DNA from: Minwuiaceae bacterium
GTDB lineage: Bacteria; Pseudomonadota; Alphaproteobacteria; Minwuiales; Minwuiaceae
Assembly (NCBI GenBank): GCA_028278525.1
Contig: JANQEE010000013.1
Location: 248,001 to 312,000, forward strand
Direction of reading: 5' to 3'
DNA length: 64,000 nt
How positions within the stretch are numbered: the stretch's first letter is position 1; each line of letters starts with the position of its first letter. The notes beneath the pieces are model-generated. The model saw only the letters and a program-made list of their open reading frames with translations, made no database searches and had not been told where the DNA came from. The translations under genes were made by a program, and so were the position numbers. Shown here piece by piece: positions 20,498 to 42,001 of this stretch.

Positions 20498-20526
20498 ATG
20501 ACAGTTTCATTACAGTTCAATTACAG
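20498..20526 (-). promoter_or_regulatory. Pho box (three PhoB half-sites) upstream of phnD
   Basis: Read on the minus strand: CTGTAAT (20526-20520), TGAA, CTGTAAT (20515-20509), GAAA, CTGTCAT (20504-20498). These are three 7-bp units with exact 11-bp periodicity and AT-rich 4-bp spacers. This matches the known PhoB site (two CTGTCAT units 11 bp apart) with one extra unit. It is correctly oriented about 75 bp upstream of phnD. Confidence 0.88.
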
Positions 20527-20656
20527 ATCTTTTCCGAAAGGAAAGCCGCTGTCGAGCGCGACGTTTCCGGCGGCAAGTCCCCTCGATCAGCCGGCAAAAC
20601 CGATGTATCGGCGCGTTGCGGCGGGTCAAGCATCGTGGATGGAAAAACGCCGGCGG

Positions 20657-22711
20657 TCAGTCCGCCGCTCGATACAGGTGCCACAGATCGGCGACGCCGT
20701 TCAGCCGATGCTTGCCGGCGTTCTCGAGTTCGATGCCCGAACCGGCGATCAGATCCCTGACGGTACGGGAGATGACGACCTCGCCGGGACCGGCGAAGCG
20801 CGCAACGCCGGCGGCGATGTCGGCCGCCACGCCGTCGACCTGGCCGTCCTGCATATCCACCTCGCCGGTATGGACACCAATCCGAACCGTGACACCCTGC
20901 AACCGCAGCAGCCCGGCTATCGACAGCGCGCAGTGGATCGCTCGCGCCGGGCCGTCGAACGTGGCCCGGAACCTGCCCACCGGCGAGGCGGTCGCCTTGC
21001 CGCGAAAACGGGCGAGTTCGCTCGCCAAGGCGTCGTGCGCGGGGCGGAACCGATTTCCGTGTCCTCCCTCGATCTCGGCATGCACAATCGTCGCCAACAC
21101 CCGGTTCGACAGGCCGGCGGGTTCGGCTTCTGCGATAAACGAGCCGATCAGGTCGATGATCTTTCCCGTATTGTCGCCTACGAAGAACAGATGATCGTCG
21201 CCGGGCAGCTCGACATAGCGCGCGCCGGGGATCTGCTCACCCAGAAAGCGGCCGTCCTCGACGTCGATGGTCACGTCCCCGGTCCGGTGGATCACGATGG
21301 TCGGGACACGGATGGTTGGCAGGATGTCGCTGATATCGATCTCACTGTTCATTTTCATCAGCGCCGCCGCGGCGCCGGGATTGGCCCCCAACCGTTCAAA
21401 CTTGCCCCACCAGTGCTGGAAGTCGGCATTGCCGGCCATCGACGGTGCGAAGTTCGCCAGGGTCTTGCCGGTGCCCCAATCCTCGTCGATATAACGGAAC
21501 AGCTCGCGCAGCGATTCCGCCGTCGGGAACCAAGATGTGAACCGCGCGAAAGCGCCATACAGGATCAGAGACCGGCAGCGATCTGGATGGCTGGCTGCGA
21601 ACATGGCGGATAACGAGCCGCCCTCCGATATCCCCATGATCGCGGCCGTCTCCAGCCCGACCGCGTCCATCACGGCGCGGATATCGTCCATGCGTTCGTC
21701 CAGGCCCGGCAGGTCGCCGACCTGATCGGACAGTCCGGTGCCGCGCTTGTCGAACATGGTCACCCGCGCGACCGTACCGAGACGTCTGAGCGCCCGCGCG
21801 AAGCCCGGCTCGTCCCAGTAGTTTTCGATATGGGAAACGAAACCGGGTGTCAGCACCAGGTCTACGGGACCGTCCCCGAAGACCTGGTAGGCAACGTGCA
21901 CCCCGCCGCTCTTGGCGTAGTGGGTCGCCGGTTTGTCCGATATCGGAAGGTTCAGGGCGGGCGTCGGCAGGGGCGGAACGGGACGGCTGCATGCGGAACC
22001 GTCAACGGCACCGCGCACCTTTTCCAACGCGGCACTCGGCTTTATCCCCGCGTCGGCAAGCAGGCGGTTTGCCGTGGCTAGCTGTTGCTCCGCCTGCGTT
22101 CGGTAGCCGGCTCTCGCCAGCATCGAACAAAGGTCAGCGTGCGCCGCTTCGTCCAGCGGGTCGACTTGCACAAGCGACCGCGCATAACGCAACGCCGCGC
22201 AGGGCTCCGCCGACAGCCGGCTTATCAGGGCCCGAAGAATTTCGCCGTGAAGGGCGCGTGCATCCTCGCGTTCGGCAATGCACCAGGATTGAAAACCATC
22301 GCATCTCGGCAGGAAAAGCCCGTCCAGAAAGGCGCCTTGCAGCACCTGGGCAAAATCTTGCAGCTCCGATGTTTCGATCGCCGCCAGTCCGGCGGCGCAT
22401 CGTCGACGAACGGCAAGCACGTCGACATGGACGCCGGCGGGATCGAAACGCACCGTGTCCCGGTCGGCGACGATGCGCGCCGTCTCCGGATCGTTGACCA
22501 GCGGCCGCAGCCGGCTGAGGCTCCAGCGCAACGCGCCGCGCGGATCGTCGGGCAGATCCCAGAACATAGCGCATAGATGATCGCGCCGGTGTGCCCTGCC
22601 GGTCATTGCCAGATATGCCAGCAGTGCGCGGGTTTTCTTTGATCGCGGCAGCGCCACCGGCTCGCCGTCGCGCGCAACTTCGACGCCTCCCATCAAGCGA
22701 AGAGTCAGCAT
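20657..22711 (-). CDS. SARP/BTAD regulator fused to alpha/beta hydrolase and degenerate class III cyclase domain
   Basis: A 684-residue multidomain protein. Residues 1-90 form an OmpR-like winged helix (KTRALLAYLAMTG, GALRWSLSRLR); about 95-245 is a BTAD helical domain (LVQVDPLDEAAHADLCSML); about 265-520 is an alpha/beta hydrolase with FDKRGTGLSD, Ser362 in GISEGGS and His507 in GDDHLFF; about 530-684 is a cyclase homology domain with RIGVHTGEVDM and GPGEVVISRTVRDL. In the cyclase part the metal-binding FTDIVGST is replaced by VHAEIEGG and the GDGF loop by VGRF, so cyclase activity is unlikely. The start is ATG 22711 with GGGGTGG upstream. Confidence 0.85.
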   Translation of the reverse strand: MLTLRLMGGVEVARDGEPVALPRSKKTRALLAYLAMTGRAHRRDHLCAMFWDLPDDPRGALRWSLSRLRPLVNDPETARIVADRDTVRFDPAGVHVDVLAVRRRCAAGLAAIETSELQDFAQVLQGAFLDGLFLPRCDGFQSWCIAEREDARALHGEILRALISRLSAEPCAALRYARSLVQVDPLDEAAHADLCSMLARAGYRTQAEQQLATANRLLADAGIKPSAALEKVRGAVDGSACSRPVPPLPTPALNLPISDKPATHYAKSGGVHVAYQVFGDGPVDLVLTPGFVSHIENYWDEPGFARALRRLGTVARVTMFDKRGTGLSDQVGDLPGLDERMDDIRAVMDAVGLETAAIMGISEGGSLSAMFAASHPDRCRSLILYGAFARFTSWFPTAESLRELFRYIDEDWGTGKTLANFAPSMAGNADFQHWWGKFERLGANPGAAAALMKMNSEIDISDILPTIRVPTIVIHRTGDVTIDVEDGRFLGEQIPGARYVELPGDDHLFFVGDNTGKIIDLIGSFIAEAEPAGLSNRVLATIVHAEIEGGHGNRFRPAHDALASELARFRGKATASPVGRFRATFDGPARAIHCALSIAGLLRLQGVTVRIGVHTGEVDMQDGQVDGVAADIAAGVARFAGPGEVVISRTVRDLIAGSGIELENAGKHRLNGVADLWHLYRAAD

Positions 22712-35993: not shown

Positions 35994-36344
35994 CTATTCC
36001 CGCCAATAGATAACCGTGTTGTAGACAACGAAGTCGTCTTGGTCCCCTCTTTCAATTCTGAACGTGTTGTCCCCCTTTTTGAGGAAGCCCTCCGGAATGG
36101 ATTCCATCATCAATTGCGCCGCCTGTGACGCCCCGGGCGCTGGGGACAAAAACCAATTCGGCATTTGTTCGTTGTTGATAAAGGCTTTATGCGACAACGA
36201 GTTCACGCCCGCGACCTGGAGCAACAGCAATGCTGGACCCACGGGCTCAAGATCCCCCTCTATGCCAAACACCGTCTCAACGACGGGATTTGCTTCGGTA
36301 AATGTATGGTTGATGGGAATCCAGTTAAAATCCGATTGGGTCAT
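35994..36344 (-). CDS. Small beta-rich protein of unknown function, family copy A
   Basis: A 116-residue acidic protein with no signal peptide. The order of strands SDFNWIPINHTFTE, LLLLQVAGVNSL, KAFINNEQMPNWFL, GDNTFRIERG and VVYNTVIYWRE suggests a compact beta-sandwich. Copy B (36577-36927) aligns end to end with identical length; the pseudogene at 33395 is a third member. I do not recognise the family. The start is ATG 36344 with GAGGAAC upstream. Base composition is lower in G+C than the chromosomal average of the window. Confidence 0.75.
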   Translation of the reverse strand: MTQSDFNWIPINHTFTEANPVVETVFGIEGDLEPVGPALLLLQVAGVNSLSHKAFINNEQMPNWFLSPAPGASQAAQLMMESIPEGFLKKGDNTFRIERGDQDDFVVYNTVIYWRE

Positions 36345-36576
36345 GATTGTTCCTCGATTCACGTGATGAAAACGATGACCGACGGTCGCCATGCGTTACG
36401 GTGCCCCATCGGGCAATCTCCACTGGGACGACATCGGACACAGTAAGATCGTCGCCGATTTCCATCCGGCCATGCAGGATCGGTATTGTGGCGAATACGC
36501 TCCCCTACAGCGGCCGTGGACCGACAAACTTTGGGCAGCAAACGTGCTCGCGCCCGAGCCTGTTCCCGACCCAAGC

Positions 36577-36927
36577 CTATTCGCGCCAGTGAATGGCCAC
36601 GCCATGGACGGTGAAATCGTCGGCTGCTCCTCTGTCGATCCTGATTGTGTTCGTTCCCTTCTTGAGATAGCCGTCCGGAATATGGTCCATCCACAACTGC
36701 GACGCGCCTGACCCTCCGGGGGCCACGGGCAAGTCCCAGCCCGGCAGGGGTTCGTTGTTGATAAAGATTTTGTGGGCGTACGACCCCACGCCGGAAAACT
36801 GGATAAGCAGGAAAGCGTCATCCAGCGGATTCAGGTTTCCTTCGATGGGGAACTCCATCGTTTTCGAAGGCTCTGGTTCCGTGAACGTGTGAAAGATGGG
36901 AACCCAGTTAAAGTCGGATCGGGCCAT
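36577..36927 (-). CDS. Small beta-rich protein of unknown function, family copy B
   Basis: A 116-residue paralogue of copy A. Shared anchors are SDFNWVPIFHTFTE at the N-terminus, FLLIQFSGVGS, HKIFINNEPLPGW, LKKGTNTIRIDRG and a C-terminal HWRE. The INNE-LPGW loop and the terminal WRE are the most conserved parts. The start is ATG 36927 with GGAGAC upstream. Copy A lies 232 bp downstream, so the two may share a transcript or have separate promoters. It is likely cytoplasmic, since no export signal is visible. Function unknown. Confidence 0.75.
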   Translation of the reverse strand: MARSDFNWVPIFHTFTEPEPSKTMEFPIEGNLNPLDDAFLLIQFSGVGSYAHKIFINNEPLPGWDLPVAPGGSGASQLWMDHIPDGYLKKGTNTIRIDRGAADDFTVHGVAIHWRE

Positions 36928-37152
36928 GACTACGTCTCCAGTGCGATTGATAACACGCGCCAATCAACGATGTGTATGCGTTACGCTTCTACTAAGCATT
37001 CAGATTGCCTAGCAGTACGTCATTCGTATGTTTGATTAAGTAAAGCCAGGATTAACGAACGTGAACCCGAGAAACCGCACAAGGAAAATGCAGCTTTGCA
37101 GTGTACGCGGAGGGGATCTATGAAAACGAAACGCGAGGGCCGGGCCGAAGTC

Positions 37153-38052
37153 TCACCCGGCCTCGTAAAACGCCCGAATGAACTTCCAGGCTTCTTCCGC
37201 GCTCTCGACGAACCGAAAGATCTCCAGATCCCCCGGCTCGATCGCGCCCTCCTCGACCAGCGCCTCGAAATTGACGATCCTCCGCCAATAGGCCTCGCCG
37301 AACAGCAGCACCGGGATCGGCTTGATCTTGCCGGTCTGGATCAGGGTCAGCGCCTCGAACAGTTCGTCCATGGTGCCGAACCCGCCGGGAAAGATCACCA
37401 ACGCCCGGGAGCGCAGCAGGAAATGCATCTTACGCAGCGCGAAATAGTGGAACTGTAAACTGAGCGCCGGCGAGACGTACGGGTTCGGCGCCTGCTCGTG
37501 CGGCAGCACGATGTTGAGGCCGATGCTGAGTTCGCCCGCGTCGGCGGCGCCGCGGTTCGCCGCCTCCATGATGCCCGGCCCGCCGCCGGTGATGATCACG
37601 TAGTCGCGCTTGTCCGGCGTCTCCGCCGCGGCCGCCGCCGAGGCCAGCCGCGCGAATTCGCGCGCCTCGTCGTAATAGCCGACCTTGTCCAGAACCCGTT
37701 GCGCCCGATCGACGCGCCGGCGCGCCTCGGCGTCGTCCGGCGCCTTGGCCAAGGCCGCTTCCGCCGCCGCCAGCCGCGCCTCGGCGCCGACCCTATCGGG
37801 AATCCGCGCGCTGCCGAACACCACGATGGTCGATTCCACCGCGTGGTCCTGCAGGATCAGGTCGGTCTTCAGGAACTCCACCTCCAGCCGCACCGCGCGC
37901 AGCTCGTCGCGCAGCATCAGCTCGGTGTCGGCATAGGCCAGCCGATGGCTCGGCGACCGCGTCTGCGGTGTATCCAGCGCGCGATGCGCCGCCTCGGCAT
38001 CCTCCTCCGCGCTCGGAAACGCCGCCGACCGCCTGTCGTCGTCCTTCGCCAT
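37153..38052 (-). CDS. LOG family protein (TIGR00730-type nucleotide phosphoribohydrolase)
   Basis: A 299-residue Rossmann-like protein. After a charged N-terminal extension (about 1-70), VVFGSARIPD begins the fold. IITGGGPGIMEAANRGA (about 155-171) and FPGGFGTMDELFE (about 222-234) are the two signature motifs; the Arg and Glu of the PGGxGTxxE motif are catalytic in LOG enzymes, which release bases from nucleoside 5'-monophosphates. The long form with an internal helical insertion is common in alphaproteobacteria. It lies 6 bp downstream of a 40-residue membrane protein gene. Cytokinin production cannot be inferred. Confidence 0.88.
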   Translation of the reverse strand: MAKDDDRRSAAFPSAEEDAEAAHRALDTPQTRSPSHRLAYADTELMLRDELRAVRLEVEFLKTDLILQDHAVESTIVVFGSARIPDRVGAEARLAAAEAALAKAPDDAEARRRVDRAQRVLDKVGYYDEAREFARLASAAAAAETPDKRDYVIITGGGPGIMEAANRGAADAGELSIGLNIVLPHEQAPNPYVSPALSLQFHYFALRKMHFLLRSRALVIFPGGFGTMDELFEALTLIQTGKIKPIPVLLFGEAYWRRIVNFEALVEEGAIEPGDLEIFRFVESAEEAWKFIRAFYEAG

Positions 38053-38058
38053 CCTCGC

Positions 38059-38181
38059 TCACGCCGTCTGCTCAGGCCAGAACAACAGCGCCAGTACGAC
38101 CGCCCAGACAACGATCCAGAAGATCCAGGTCGCGTTGGGATGCGCCGCCTGCCATTCCAGAATACGCTTGTGGATCGTCAT
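38059..38181 (-). CDS. Small single-pass membrane protein (40 residues)
   Basis: A short open frame with ATG 38181, preceded by a strong GGGAGG site 10 bases upstream, and TGA at 38061-38059. It encodes a basic N-terminus (MTIHKRILEWQAAHPN), one hydrophobic helix (TWIFWIVVWAVVLALLFW) and a short PEQTA tail. Six bases separate it from the LOG gene start, which suggests an operon. The codon-usage and ribosome-site context support a real gene. Function unknown. Confidence 0.7.
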   Translation of the reverse strand: MTIHKRILEWQAAHPNATWIFWIVVWAVVLALLFWPEQTA

Positions 38182-38365
38182 CGCCCAATCGCCTCCCTAG
38201 CCCAACGCCTGCGAGGACCGGCCGCCGCGGCGCGGAGCGACATCGCCTTGACCCCGCCCATGCAGAGGACGATCTTCCGAACAACCGTCCGCCCGCATTG
38301 ATCTCACTCAAGCGCGACGCCCCGGCGCCATCCGGCTCGATGCGCAACAAGGAAAGGAGCGTCAG

Positions 38366-38764
38366 GTGAGTCTACCGGCAATCGCCGCTGCGCTGATCTT
38401 CACAACCCTCGGCAGCCTGCACGCCGTCTACACACTGTACGACATCGTCAAGCAACCCCGCTATTTCCGCCCGAAGGACCGGACCCTCATCGAAGCCATG
38501 CAGGCGACAAAAATGGCCCTCGCCCCGCAGGGCCACGACTTCTGGTCCGCCCTCCTCGGCTTCCACTTGAGCCACAGCCTCGGCATTATGCTTTTCGCCC
38601 TGCTGATCGCCGTCGCCGACACCTACGCCATCGACTGGCTGATGCCCGTGCTCTCCGCCGTCGGCGCCCTGCTCACCCTCATCGCTTGGCGCTGCTGGTT
38701 TCATGTGCCCATGATCGGTTGCCTGGTCGGCACCGTGCTAATTGCGGTAGCGTGGGTTTTCTAG
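38366..38764 (+). CDS. Integral membrane protein of unknown function
   Basis: A 132-residue hydrophobic protein with about four membrane segments: about 4-26, 62-84, 88-108 and 112-131. The loop between the first two contains KQPRYFRPKDRTLIEAMQ, positively charged, and a GFHLSHSLGIM motif starts the second helix. The start is GTG 38366 with AAGGAGCG upstream. It is divergent from the LOG operon. I know no function for the LSHSLG-type small membrane proteins. Confidence 0.78.
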   Translation: MSLPAIAAALIFTTLGSLHAVYTLYDIVKQPRYFRPKDRTLIEAMQATKMALAPQGHDFWSALLGFHLSHSLGIMLFALLIAVADTYAIDWLMPVLSAVGALLTLIAWRCWFHVPMIGCLVGTVLIAVAWVF

Positions 38765-39092
38765 ATCACTTAGCTCATTCTGACCCGTATTGTCTTGGCT
38801 TCGAAAACTTCACACAGTGAGTAGCCAATGAGTTCCAGCCTGGAACTATTGTATACCGCAATCAGTATTAAAGCGCCGGCAGTCACATGCGCCCTACAAT
38901 TTAGAACTTGTGACATTTACAAGGGCGGCAATCTCTTCAAACCTACACAAGGCAAATAGACTACGTCTGAATACCAAACGCACTTTACTCGTTTGAGATT
39001 CTGTGTACAGTTTATCGCCCTGCGTGCAAGTCAGAATGCGCAATATAACAATACCTCGCCACTCTTGAGGACGAGGAATTAGGGGAAACACC
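38765..39092. other. AT-richer intergenic region at the left edge of the low-GC island
   Basis: A 328-bp stretch with no convincing gene; a 66-codon minus-strand frame at 38894 lacks any ribosome site or recognisable content. Base composition falls from GC-rich to AT-rich near 38780. It contains the left member (38865-38882) of an imperfect 18-bp repeat also found at 41918-41935. Confidence 0.65.
38865..38882 (+). repeat. Imperfect 18-bp direct repeat, left copy (island boundary candidate)
   Basis: GTATTA followed by a GCGCCGGC-containing half; it matches 41918-41935 at 15 of 18 positions in the same orientation. The pair brackets the AT-rich three-gene island. Confidence 0.4.
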
Positions 39093-40082
39093 ATGCGTCA
39101 GCTAGTCCTGATTCTCGCCCTTATGATGTCTAGCTGCGCCCCGGCGGTATTCAATACTGAAGTAACCGAGTTTCGAACAGCTGTGGACCAAACCGTTGAT
39201 GTTGTGGCGCAGTATAGTGTTGCAGAAAAAGATGGTAGGCTAGCCGGTCTAGCAGCAGAAATTTCTAGAAAAGAACAACTGGTTCGATTCTCATTAGAAT
39301 GCCACTTGGAGAAAAAAGACCATCCAACCAGAGTACAATTTGACTCCCAAGACTGCCAACTTACAAGACAGAGCATCGATAGCAACCAGGTAGTTGATCA
39401 ACGCATCGAAATCCCTGTGATTGAACGTGGAGATGTTAGCAAACTAGTTTCGGCAATCGCATCATATGCGAAAGGACTAAACGATATTACGAGAACAACT
39501 GATAGCGTTTCGATCCTGGAAAACTTGGATAGCCTTCGCACTGGCATAAGAGACCTTGCACATGAGGTTGAAGAACCGGTTCCGGAATCTGCCCTCCGCT
39601 TCCCTAATGTATTAGTTGTATTGTTTCAAAAAATACTTCAATTGCACTTCAGCCAATTGCGCTATGACTATCTTTCAGAGGCCGTGAAGATTGCTGATCC
39701 TTGGATCACAAAAAACTTGAGTGCCCGTGCTTCCCAGCTAGATCAACTACACAATCGTGCGACCCGGCTGAGGTTCGATCAACTCGAGCTTCTATTGAAC
39801 GGCCTGAACGAAGAGCCGATTGAGTATCGCCGAGTAGAACTGTTGACCAGAGTGCTAAACGAAAAAGCAGCACTGGATAAATTGCTTCGGGGTGACCCGC
39901 CAAGCCTACTAATCAATGGATTGATAGAAGCTCATAACCGCCTTGCCAAAAGCATTGATGATCCAAGCAGCAGTGATCCCGGAAGTGACATCAGTAACAA
40001 AATAGCCTCATTCCAGGCGATAAGAAACTTTGCCAACGAGGTTAGAGAAATTCAATCTGCGTTGGCGGCGCTAAACAAATGA
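39093..40082 (+). CDS. Putative lipoprotein of unknown function, helix-rich (island gene 1)
   Basis: A 329-residue protein. The N-terminus MRQLVLILALMMSSC is a short lipoprotein signal with Cys15 as the acylation site; the -1 to -3 residues are acceptable though not ideal. The mature protein is mostly helical and charged, with coiled-coil-like stretches (about 195-250, NLSARASQLDQLHNRATRLR). No family recognised. G+C is low: 25 of 60 bases in the line at 39661. The start is ATG 39093 with AGGGGAAA upstream. Its TGA overlaps the next gene's ATG as ATGA, so translation is coupled. Confidence 0.75.
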   Translation: MRQLVLILALMMSSCAPAVFNTEVTEFRTAVDQTVDVVAQYSVAEKDGRLAGLAAEISRKEQLVRFSLECHLEKKDHPTRVQFDSQDCQLTRQSIDSNQVVDQRIEIPVIERGDVSKLVSAIASYAKGLNDITRTTDSVSILENLDSLRTGIRDLAHEVEEPVPESALRFPNVLVVLFQKILQLHFSQLRYDYLSEAVKIADPWITKNLSARASQLDQLHNRATRLRFDQLELLLNGLNEEPIEYRRVELLTRVLNEKAALDKLLRGDPPSLLINGLIEAHNRLAKSIDDPSSSDPGSDISNKIASFQAIRNFANEVREIQSALAALNK

Positions 40083-40747
40083 CCACAATTCTTGACCAAA
40101 AAAAGCAAATCGCCGAAATACAATCGATTGAAGTACAAACCTCGAATGCACAAGGAGCTGCTGCTATAGAGGTGTCAAAACTTCGGATAGAGAAAGCAAA
40201 AATTGTCGCAACGTTAGCCGGGATTCTACTCAGTTTCGCAATTGGGTTAGCCACATGGCATGTGGAGCAAGAGAAGCAACGAAAATTTGAGGTGAACAGC
40301 GCGCTAGTCAAGCTTCTTGAAAAACTCTCAAGGACCGAGACCCCAAATGAGCAACAAATAGCCGCAGCAGCGATGCCTCTCTACGGCCAACAGTCAACAA
40401 ATATTTTGATCGCAAGTTTGAGGATAGTAGATGAGGCTGAGGTACTTAGGGAAGTACAGTGGTCGTTAGGCGTCGTTTCCAAGGAGTCAGAGCAAAGTCG
40501 AACAAGCGTATTGAGACAACTCCTGTTTGCAGCGAAAGAAATTGTAAAGCTTCCATCAACTTCTCAACATAAAGGTATGACGGCTCATTTAAATGCCTAT
40601 CTCGATACAATCGAACTTGTTTACGCAGTATGGAACCCAAACTGGCGAGAAGAAGAGATCTTGGACCGTCCCGTCGGCCGAGAACTTAGCAGGTTATGCG
40701 AGGTGCTTGGTAGCGAGAATAGTAGAGAGAGTCTTTGTGGCGCATAG
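40079..40747 (+). CDS. Membrane-anchored coiled-coil protein of unknown function (island gene 2)
   Basis: A 222-residue protein. About 1-41 is an N-terminal amphipathic/coiled-coil segment, 42-60 one hydrophobic helix (IVATLAGILLSFAIGLATW), and 62-222 a helical domain rich in Leu, Gln and Glu with no signature I know. Topology is likely N-in with the large domain outside, or the reverse. ATG 40079 overlaps the lipoprotein stop by four bases. It is followed by the secreted-protein gene after 2 bases. The tight packing marks the three as one transcription unit. Confidence 0.75.
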   Translation: MTTILDQKKQIAEIQSIEVQTSNAQGAAAIEVSKLRIEKAKIVATLAGILLSFAIGLATWHVEQEKQRKFEVNSALVKLLEKLSRTETPNEQQIAAAAMPLYGQQSTNILIASLRIVDEAEVLREVQWSLGVVSKESEQSRTSVLRQLLFAAKEIVKLPSTSQHKGMTAHLNAYLDTIELVYAVWNPNWREEEILDRPVGRELSRLCEVLGSENSRESLCGA

Positions 40748-40749
40748 AT

Positions 40750-41790
40750 ATGATTTTTCGCGGAATTTTCTGCCCGATCACTGTGGCACTAAGCTTGACG
40801 CTTTCCTTTTCCCCTGTTTGTTGGGCAAAAGACGATACAGCAGTAGTCGATCCTGGTTTCGAGAGCGAGCACATAAACGTAGGCGGAGCGCTGACCAAGG
40901 CTATCACATTCACAGATAAGTTCGTTGACACGCTCGACAACGTATCTCAATCAAGCATGGCAATTGTTTATGAAAACAGAGAAGCAATAAAGCACCAGAT
41001 AAAAACAAAAATAGATATCGATGACGATAAAGAGGCAAAAAGACTCTTAGAAAATGGCATCTCTATTGTTGCAAAGATTGAGACCTTTTGGGAGGATATC
41101 GATGAACCAAAAATTACAGCAAATATTTATGATCTAAAATCTCAATCTTACAAGAAAATCCTCACATGGGATAAGCGTTTTGAGAGAGGAAATTCAACCA
41201 TCCTCAAAAAGCGTGCGGAAAATCTTGCTCATTGGATTGGTTCCTTGCTACCTCACACGAAATATGAGCGCAGGATGAGGGTATGCATTAATATGATAGG
41301 GTCGCCGCCGGATGGATTTCTAACGAAGAATAAAGACAGAATATTGGAGTCCTTTTTTAGTGAATTTGGTGATTTTTGGGAAAAAATTGAGCCAGAAAAA
41401 GAAGGTTTAACAGTGTTAATCCCCAACAAAGAAGAAGTTGAAAAATGCAGCAGAAAATCATTTGATCGCGATAAAGTAGAATATTTGACAAGCATTAACC
41501 TCCATGAATTAAGGGGAAGTCGCGTACAATTGACAATAACTGTTACAAAAAGGGGAAGATACTTCGTAGGGTTCGGAAAACCAGCAGAAAAAGTAGTCTT
41601 TCCGAAAGTGCGAATAGCTGATGGGAAGTGGAAATCAGACGCGGGTCTCAAAAATCTCATTCGCTGGATTGCCAAGTGTTTTCATGCCGGTTTTCAAGAA
41701 AACGTGGTTCGAGTAGGGGTTGGCAATTTCGCTGAAGTGGCTAGGTCCATAGCGGAATATGGCGGTGTTTGCAGTGTAAGCTCCGCCTAA
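40750..41790 (+). CDS. Secreted protein of unknown function (island gene 3)
   Basis: A 346-residue protein. A signal peptide covers about 1-27 (GIFCPITVALSLTLSFSPVCWA). The mature part has an N-terminal helical, charged region (about 45-160) and a C-terminal part with predicted strands around GSRVQLTITVTKRGRYFVGFG and four cysteines. No family recognised. I chose ATG 40750, two bases after the upstream stop; a TTG at 40735 inside the upstream gene is unlikely. The line at 41041 has only 23 of 60 G+C. All three island proteins appear to face the envelope. Confidence 0.75.
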   Translation: MIFRGIFCPITVALSLTLSFSPVCWAKDDTAVVDPGFESEHINVGGALTKAITFTDKFVDTLDNVSQSSMAIVYENREAIKHQIKTKIDIDDDKEAKRLLENGISIVAKIETFWEDIDEPKITANIYDLKSQSYKKILTWDKRFERGNSTILKKRAENLAHWIGSLLPHTKYERRMRVCINMIGSPPDGFLTKNKDRILESFFSEFGDFWEKIEPEKEGLTVLIPNKEEVEKCSRKSFDRDKVEYLTSINLHELRGSRVQLTITVTKRGRYFVGFGKPAEKVVFPKVRIADGKWKSDAGLKNLIRWIAKCFHAGFQENVVRVGVGNFAEVARSIAEYGGVCSVSSA

Positions 41791-41917
41791 AGAGTTTGCC
41801 GTTGGGATGTAGTTGCCCTGCCGCAGCTTTTGTGGGGGCAAGCGCCACTATATCTAGGTTGGAGGGTTTAGGCTGCGTGGTCACGCTCGCTCTCCTCAGT
41901 CCTTTCTTACACTATCT

Positions 41918-41935
41918 GTATTAGTGCGCCGGCGG
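41918..41935 (+). repeat. Imperfect 18-bp direct repeat, right copy (island boundary candidate)
   Basis: Matches 38865-38882 at 15 of 18 positions. GC-rich DNA resumes directly after it. Confidence 0.4.
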
Positions 41936-42001
41936 TTGTCTTGGCCTACGCCTATGAATTTTGCTCAACACTACCGCTTTCGCCCGCCGGTCCGACGACG
42001 C

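Follow-up and report, generated by a model that had tools for sequence, protein, structure and literature searches.

A SARP/BTAD-type protein joining a LipJ-type hydrolase to a cyclase fold without catalytic residues in a Minwuiaceae bacterium

The 64,000-nucleotide stretch of contig JANQEE010000013.1 of a Minwuiaceae bacterium (the window) encodes, at 20657-22711 on the minus strand, a 684-residue protein in which a predicted winged helix and a BTAD domain are followed by an alpha/beta hydrolase with a complete catalytic triad and by a class III cyclase homology domain in which the catalytic residues are gone. The protein (the query) is a member of a recurrent pattern and not an isolated oddity: among its relatives, hydrolase-cyclase pairs that stand alone retain their cyclase site, and pairs joined to a regulatory part have almost always lost it. 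We consider it probable (about 0.6) that the query and its fused relatives are one-component transcription factors with a hydrolase as sensor and a non-catalytic cyclase fold.

Domain make-up of the protein

The open reading frame has an ATG start, and its coordinates include the stop codon; an alternative TTG start proposed by the ORF finder would give 705 residues and is less likely, because homologues begin aligning at residues 1-4 of the 684-residue form. AlphaFold models the full-length protein with a pLDDT of 88.7 and a pTM of 0.66. The original prediction, made from the sequence, had described a winged helix, BTAD domain, hydrolase and cyclase domain in one polypeptide; Pfam, phmmer and Foldseek bear out the last three, and the winged helix is a prediction from the modelled structure. 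All features of the gene described below lie on the minus strand, which the original prediction did not specify.

The hydrolase domain (residues 259-530; 21122-21937) contains a Pfam Abhydrolase_1 match at residues 285-423 (E 3.4e-16, above cut-off). Its nucleophile Ser362 (in GISEGG; 21626-21628) and base His507 (21191-21193), both already recognized in the original prediction, are joined by Asp479 (21275-21277), which completes the triad of an alpha/beta hydrolase, and the domain is probably catalytically competent. When the full model was compared with known structures (VIA-align), esterases and lactonases were the best matches over about residues 262-530, the top match being 8v16_B (Z 31.7, root-mean-square deviation [rmsd] 2.4, 266 aligned residues). 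DWARF14 (5dj5_B; Z 28.8, rmsd 2.5, 252 aligned) and RsbQ (1wom_B; Z 28.4, rmsd 2.6, 255 aligned) share the fold, which is in itself no proof of a shared function. RsbQ and DWARF14/KAI2 are signal-receiving hydrolases; they are separate proteins that act through partners and are not known to be fused to a DNA-binding domain.

The C-terminal domain (residues 535-684; 20660-21109) is a cyclase fold by both homology and predicted structure. No cyclase domain exceeds the Pfam cut-off in the query (Guanylate_cyc, E 0.22), but phmmer aligns it with Rv1900c of Mycobacterium tuberculosis (1ybt) at E 1.5e-20 with the whole protein and 1.4e-21 with the C-terminal domain alone. A structure predicted for the domain from 29 sequences (pLDDT 87.9, pTM 0.83) matches 1ybu_B with a Foldseek E value of 7.2e-17, a TM score of 0.85 and an rmsd of 1.5.

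The motif changes reported in the original prediction are all present: FTDIVGST is VHAEIEGG and GDGF is VGRF, and HTGEV is still in place. Alignment with active cyclases, which had been proposed as a check, sets Glu546 (FTDI to HAEI; 21074-21076) at the first and Gly579 (20975-20977) at the second of the two aspartate positions that we take to bind metal in class III cyclases, so that neither aspartate of an active enzyme is present. The changes extend further, since the base-specifying positions are occupied by Ala575 and Gln624 and the position of the transition-state arginine by Gly635; about 11 residues after beta-1 are missing as well. The base-specifying and transition-state assignments come from Ma1120 (PMC4215837) and were transferred to the query through its motifs and alignment. 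Across 29 aligned cyclase domains, some intact and some degenerate, 13 columns are invariant. On the best reading of the sequence, the cyclase fold of the query no longer makes cyclic nucleotide.

The hydrolase and cyclase parts together resemble LipJ (Rv1900c; 1ybt, 1ybu), which has the same order of hydrolase and class III cyclase, with FTDI and GDGF where the query has lost its catalytic residues; to our knowledge, Rv1900c has no DNA-binding domain. The NCBIfam LipJ model (NF058673) aligns over query residues 258-680 (E 1.9e-90) with 303.8 bits, below its equivalog cut-off of 800.

In the N-terminal part, the BTAD domain (residues 97-235; 22007-22423) scores 30.1 bits against a cut-off of 22.1 (PF03704, E 7.1e-7), as expected of a SARP-type protein. 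Residues 1-96 (22424-22711) form a predicted OmpR/SARP-type winged helix, assigned from the strand-helix order in the AlphaFold secondary structure; Trans_reg_C does not reach the Pfam cut-off in the query, and residues 1-240 have no PDB sequence match at E 0.01. Pfam does score Trans_reg_C in some relatives (for example L033, E 2e-6). The VIA-align matches to the query model span about residues 258-536 only, and the N-terminal fold lies outside them. Query residues 2-233 are 56% identical to a BTAD-AAA paralogue of the same genome (L003), and the SARP/BTAD module would be expected to bind DNA.

Two further BTAD proteins of this genome were noted. One lies in the window (L004; 34836-35609, minus strand, in a 715-residue open frame) and has 43% identity to query residues 2-266; in place of a hydrolase, its BTAD domain is followed by a region that by eye appears TolB-like and repetitive. 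The other (L002, contig C11) is a BTAD-hydrolase protein without a cyclase domain and is 38% identical to the query.

Relatives with and without a regulatory part

Stand-alone hydrolase-cyclase proteins of the LipJ type retain both metal-binding aspartates in 51 of 51 rows (49 distinct sequences), a row being one sorted open frame; at least one aspartate is missing from 62 of the 63 rows in which a cyclase domain is accompanied by an extra regulatory part, and from 60 of 61 when only rows with a DNA-binding domain are considered. Fisher's test of this contrast gives a p value of 6e-32, which is inflated by relatedness. The 63 rows comprise 32 BTAD-hydrolase-cyclase proteins including the query, among which only L088 has both aspartates; 25 fusions to a C-terminal LuxR-type GerE domain, three with an N-terminal OmpR-type Trans_reg_C domain and two with a TolB-like N-terminus (by eye) and no recognized DNA-binding domain, none of them with both; and L092, a long BTAD-labelled row with an AAA part, also without the pair. 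Several fused rows retain one of the two residues. In L088 the base positions carry Arg and Asp, and the transition-state Arg is present too.

The two aspartate positions are spaced 44 residues apart in every one of the 51 stand-alone rows, as they are in Rv1900c; in fused rows the spacing ranges from 23 to 44. A further 25 fused rows have no cyclase domain at all (23 BTAD-hydrolase and two Trans_reg_C-hydrolase). Of the fused rows, on the other hand, 87 of 88 have a complete Ser-Asp-His triad in the hydrolase, as do 50 of 51 stand-alone rows. Two Trans_reg_C-hydrolase proteins without a cyclase domain are L080 and L087; the hydrolase domain of L080 is 61% identical to that of the query.

The three-domain make-up of the query is shared by BTAD-hydrolase-pseudocyclase proteins from a genus inferred to be Mesorhizobium (L043, L061-L079, L081-L086, L088 and others) and from Sinorhizobium terangae (L033), all of which except L088 have lost at least one cyclase aspartate. 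These Mesorhizobium-type proteins differ from the query in having a separate origin and a BTAD of another subfamily, and the hydrolase domain of L043 is 45% identical to that of the query. Trans_reg_C-hydrolase-pseudocyclase proteins (L041, L054 and L116), likewise with a degenerate cyclase, carry an OmpR-type winged helix where the query has SARP/BTAD. Hydrolase-pseudocyclase-LuxR proteins (L045, L090, L091 and others) contain the same hydrolase and degenerate cyclase pair, with GerE at the C-terminus.

The mycobacterial Mclx proteins Rv0386, Rv1358 and Rv2488c also link a class III cyclase homology domain (CHD) to a DNA-binding domain, in their case with AAA and LuxR domains; as reported in part of PMC4452763, two of the three lack catalytic cyclase residues and Rv0386 has cyclase activity. 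The description in that part of the paper includes no hydrolase domain for them, and the query shows no Pfam match to an AAA or LuxR domain at E 1. Among the papers listed in our literature searches, none was seen to describe hydrolase-pseudocyclase transcription factors; a 2004 survey (PMC2447327), which contains the words BTAD and 'inactive cyclase domain', may already have part of the pattern in print.

These relatives were collected by searching with the query, matches of any architecture being counted. At E 1e-60, 12 of 385 genomes of its class matched; at E 1e-70, 15 of 398 genomes in a phylum search, 128 of 146 in one genus (the inferred Mesorhizobium) and 12 of 295, 23 of 248 and 5 of 149 in three families; and at E 1e-90, 14 of 347 in one order. 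The class matches (at most three candidates scored per genome) included no other three-domain protein, and within its own family at E 1e-60 only the query's own genome matched (1 of 9). Nine loci came from named genome contigs, none of them three-domain, with alignments beginning at residue 257 or later; a search of plasmids at E 1e-30 added 37 records, among them one of Sinorhizobium terangae that aligns with 99% of the query (35% identity).

In total, 154 loci yielded 139 open frames with a near-complete hydrolase domain, which were sorted by architecture. The counts refer to fetched loci, a subset of the matches (the inferred Mesorhizobium genus gave 30 loci among at least many more matches), and include 20 further regions picked by hand, some for an unusual length or span and others to add stand-alone and LuxR-type examples. 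The labels BTAD, GerE and Trans_reg_C were assigned by blastp to seven representative segments (E 1e-3). A Pfam check of 20 of the 139 rows confirmed 16 labels (BTAD 8, GerE 3, Trans_reg_C 5), left the BTAD label of L092 unconfirmed and found L021, L035 and L089 to be without a DNA-binding domain, as expected. That L020 and L021 are TolB-like and transmembrane was judged by eye; Pfam gave only FlgO (E 0.043) for L021, and L020 is cut off by a contig end. Seven loci (L003-L007, L009 and L010) have BTAD without a hydrolase domain, and L008 is not among the sorted rows.

Eleven partial frames of seven loci (L013, L030, L031, L032, L112, L117 and L140) were left out of the counts. They resemble stand-alone genes broken by a stop codon or a change of frame; FTDI and GDG are still present in the pieces of the first six loci, and L140 retains FTDI, its remainder being unreadable. 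L030 and L112 are listed together among the interrupted stand-alone relatives. Frames also appear interrupted in L094 and L096, three-domain proteins whose BTAD part is split across two frames, and contig NZ_FNEE01000029.1 of Mesorhizobium muleiense carries the same interrupted gene as contig G780:C21 of the genus inferred to be Mesorhizobium.

Origin, selection and genomic setting

In a tree of the hydrolase domain (77 rows after thinning at 80% identity within classes), the query falls inside a clade of 15 rows of which 11 are stand-alone (support 100/97), as sister to the OmpR-type Trans_reg_C fusions (99/83). The BTAD fusions of the Mesorhizobium type group in another part of the tree, beside the stand-alone protein L034 (100/99), and a single origin of the BTAD-hydrolase-cyclase proteins is rejected, since forcing the five such rows kept into one clade gives a p-AU of 4.09e-05. 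The tree contains five independent pairs of fused and stand-alone lineages on starred branches, and the loss is on the fused side in all five.

A quick BTAD tree of 37 rows, which kept only seven other BTAD-hydrolase-cyclase rows (all Mesorhizobium-type), sets the query apart from those seven (SH-aLRT 99), in agreement with separate origins, and places its BTAD near L003 of its own genome, noted above, and L016 (54% identity). The query thus looks like a chimera of a BTAD kind found in its own genome and a LipJ-type pair; the DNA-binding part was perhaps swapped within the lineage that the query has in common with the Trans_reg_C fusions.

Selection was measured in the Mesorhizobium-type genus, where 27 three-domain genes gave 329 usable pairs out of 351. 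The median ratio of nonsynonymous to synonymous substitution rates (dN/dS) rises from 0.135 in the hydrolase through 0.222 in the DNA-binding part to 0.342 in the cyclase fold, which in these genes is relaxed but constrained. Stand-alone proteins (9 of 171 pairs usable) give 0.148 for the hydrolase and 0.202 for the cyclase. In LuxR-type rows the part after the hydrolase, a mixture of cyclase fold and GerE domain, gives 0.147, and as a control, an open frame upstream in the LuxR-type genes that is probably non-coding gives 1.15 (10 pairs). The Trans_reg_C rows provide three pairs only, with cyclase values from 0.17 to 0.92.

The regulator gene is followed on the same strand by genes for a phosphonate-type ABC transporter (binding protein, ATPase and two permeases) and preceded by a gene for an AraC-type regulator with a DJ-1/PfpI domain. 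Three CTGTMAT heptamers with an 11-bp period (CTGTAATTGAACTGTAATGAAACTGTCAT) lie at 20498-20526 (minus strand), upstream of the phnD-like binding-protein gene; the pattern, which was written after the site was seen, has one match in the window against 0 expected. The repeat resembles what we take to be the Pho-box of PhoB. A consensus scan finds a terminator-like hairpin where the regulator gene ends (20651-20667, minus strand). SARP regulators typically bind direct heptamer repeats in the promoters that they control. Because of the Pho-box-like repeat before the binding-protein gene and this hairpin, regulator and transporter appear to be separate units. A reading of the heptamers as a SARP operator, with the transporter as the regulator's target, was therefore dropped; the transporter is more likely controlled by PhoB and is not evidence of a target.

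Elsewhere in the window, G+C content drops to 0.60, 0.53 and 0.44 in successive 2-kb steps across 36001-42000, against about 0.65 around it, and this may be a foreign stretch.

Competing readings and significance

In the reading that we favour, the query would be a cytoplasmic one-component transcription factor whose N-terminal SARP/BTAD module would bind DNA at its target. The sensor would be the LipJ-type alpha/beta hydrolase with its complete triad, favoured for this role because its site is kept, and the cyclase site almost always lost, among the fused rows; the ligand would be small and ester- or lactone-like, probably bound and slowly hydrolyzed. The C-terminal cyclase fold would be a structural and possibly dimerizing module that couples the state of the hydrolase to DNA binding. 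Class III cyclases are habitually dimeric, with active sites that form at the dimer interfaces, and it is on this ground, together with the retained core of 13 invariant columns, that we infer a dimerizing or coupling role. The ancestor would have been a stand-alone LipJ-type hydrolase-cyclase in which a DNA-binding output replaced the cyclic-nucleotide output, the cyclase site being lost once it was unneeded and the hydrolase site staying under constraint.

Several observations weigh against this reading. L090 lacks the hydrolase serine. L088 (genome G838) combines all three domains with both metal aspartates, and judging from its residues is possibly still an active regulator-cyclase. The query's own genome encodes a BTAD-cyclase-AAA protein (L005, contig C70) whose cyclase belongs to another class (Pfam E 1.8e-21, above cut-off) and has both aspartates apparently intact by eye, so BTAD fusion by itself does not kill a cyclase. 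The sign test on the five independent pairs gives 0.0625, which is the floor for five pairs and cannot reach p 0.05; one of the fused lineages is the long branch L020, whose placement is unsure, and the N-terminus of the L020/L021 type contains no recognized DNA-binding domain (Pfam on L021). The query is without a close orthologue, being the only match in the nine genomes of its family, and the dN/dS values come from relatives only. The neighbourhood of the gene revealed no target of the regulator. A general rule, that any DNA-binding fusion kills any cyclase, is ruled out by L005 and by Rv0386, as reported in part of PMC4452763.

The cyclase domain could instead be a decaying remnant without a role, heading for loss. 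Its dN/dS is the highest of the three domains in the Mesorhizobium-type genes and reaches 0.92 among the three OmpR-type pairs, its length is variable, and many fused relatives lack it; yet the Mesorhizobium-type value of 0.34 is well under 1 and far from the 1.15 of the probably non-coding frame, the query domain is predicted as a complete cyclase fold at a pLDDT of 87.9, and the 13 columns are invariant across intact and degenerate domains. We regard simple decay as unlikely.

It is still less probable that the fold serves as a nucleotide sensor, binding ATP, cyclic AMP or another nucleotide without turnover and signalling to the DNA-binding part, while the hydrolase provides a second input. 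Most of the three-domain BTAD rows retain the base-specifying Asp (25 of 32), with Arg or Lys at the other base position in 26 and the transition-state Arg in 28, and part of PMC4452763 suggests an allosteric response to ATP or cyclic AMP for the mycobacterial CHD-LuxR proteins Mclx2 and Mclx3. The query itself has Ala575, Gln624 and Gly635 at these positions and the gap after beta-1, and the domain is wholly absent from 25 fused relatives. Nucleotide sensing is thus possible in the Mesorhizobium type and unlikely in the query. The original prediction had envisaged a ligand-hydrolyzing or ligand-sensing regulator whose cyclase fold only binds nucleotide or dimerizes. The kept triads and the aspartate losses among fused rows support the hydrolase as enzyme or sensor and the cyclase fold as non-catalytic, and dimerization through the fold is plausible; nucleotide binding by the query fold is not favoured, because its base-specifying residues, transition-state Arg and metal ligands are all gone.

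It seems very improbable that the hydrolase senses no ligand and is instead, in the manner of a trigger enzyme, an enzyme of metabolism tethered to a regulator. Esterases and lactonases are its top structural matches and its triad is kept, but its repeated coupling to different regulatory parts fits signalling better, and the signalling proteins RsbQ (Z 28.4) and DWARF14 (Z 28.8) have the same fold, although a fold shows no function. Hardly credible is a cyclase that is still active, whether it works through Glu546 or borrows the lost residues from a second cyclase chain in a heterodimer. Class III sites do lie at dimer interfaces, an acid remains at the first metal position, and a passage of PMC4886424 mentions Glu replacing an Asp (the passage does not specify which) in proposed cyclase-like proteins; against this, the second metal position is without an acid, the transition-state Arg and base residues are gone, and the query's own genome has no other place that aligns across the hydrolase together with the entire cyclase part.

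Within one polypeptide, then, the hydrolase site has been kept and the cyclase site lost almost whenever the pair joins a regulatory part in the relatives examined. We propose tentatively, with less confidence than for the favoured reading itself, that LipJ-type pairs have repeatedly become transcription factors by adding SARP/BTAD, OmpR-type or LuxR-type domains and switching off the cyclase, so that an enzymatic hydrolase receptor would control DNA binding within a single polypeptide, by a logic like that of DWARF14/KAI2. The idea that bacteria use hydrolyzing alpha/beta hydrolases as ligand receptors of transcription factors thereby becomes testable, and cyclase activity should not be taken for granted when such a fusion is annotated as a cyclase.

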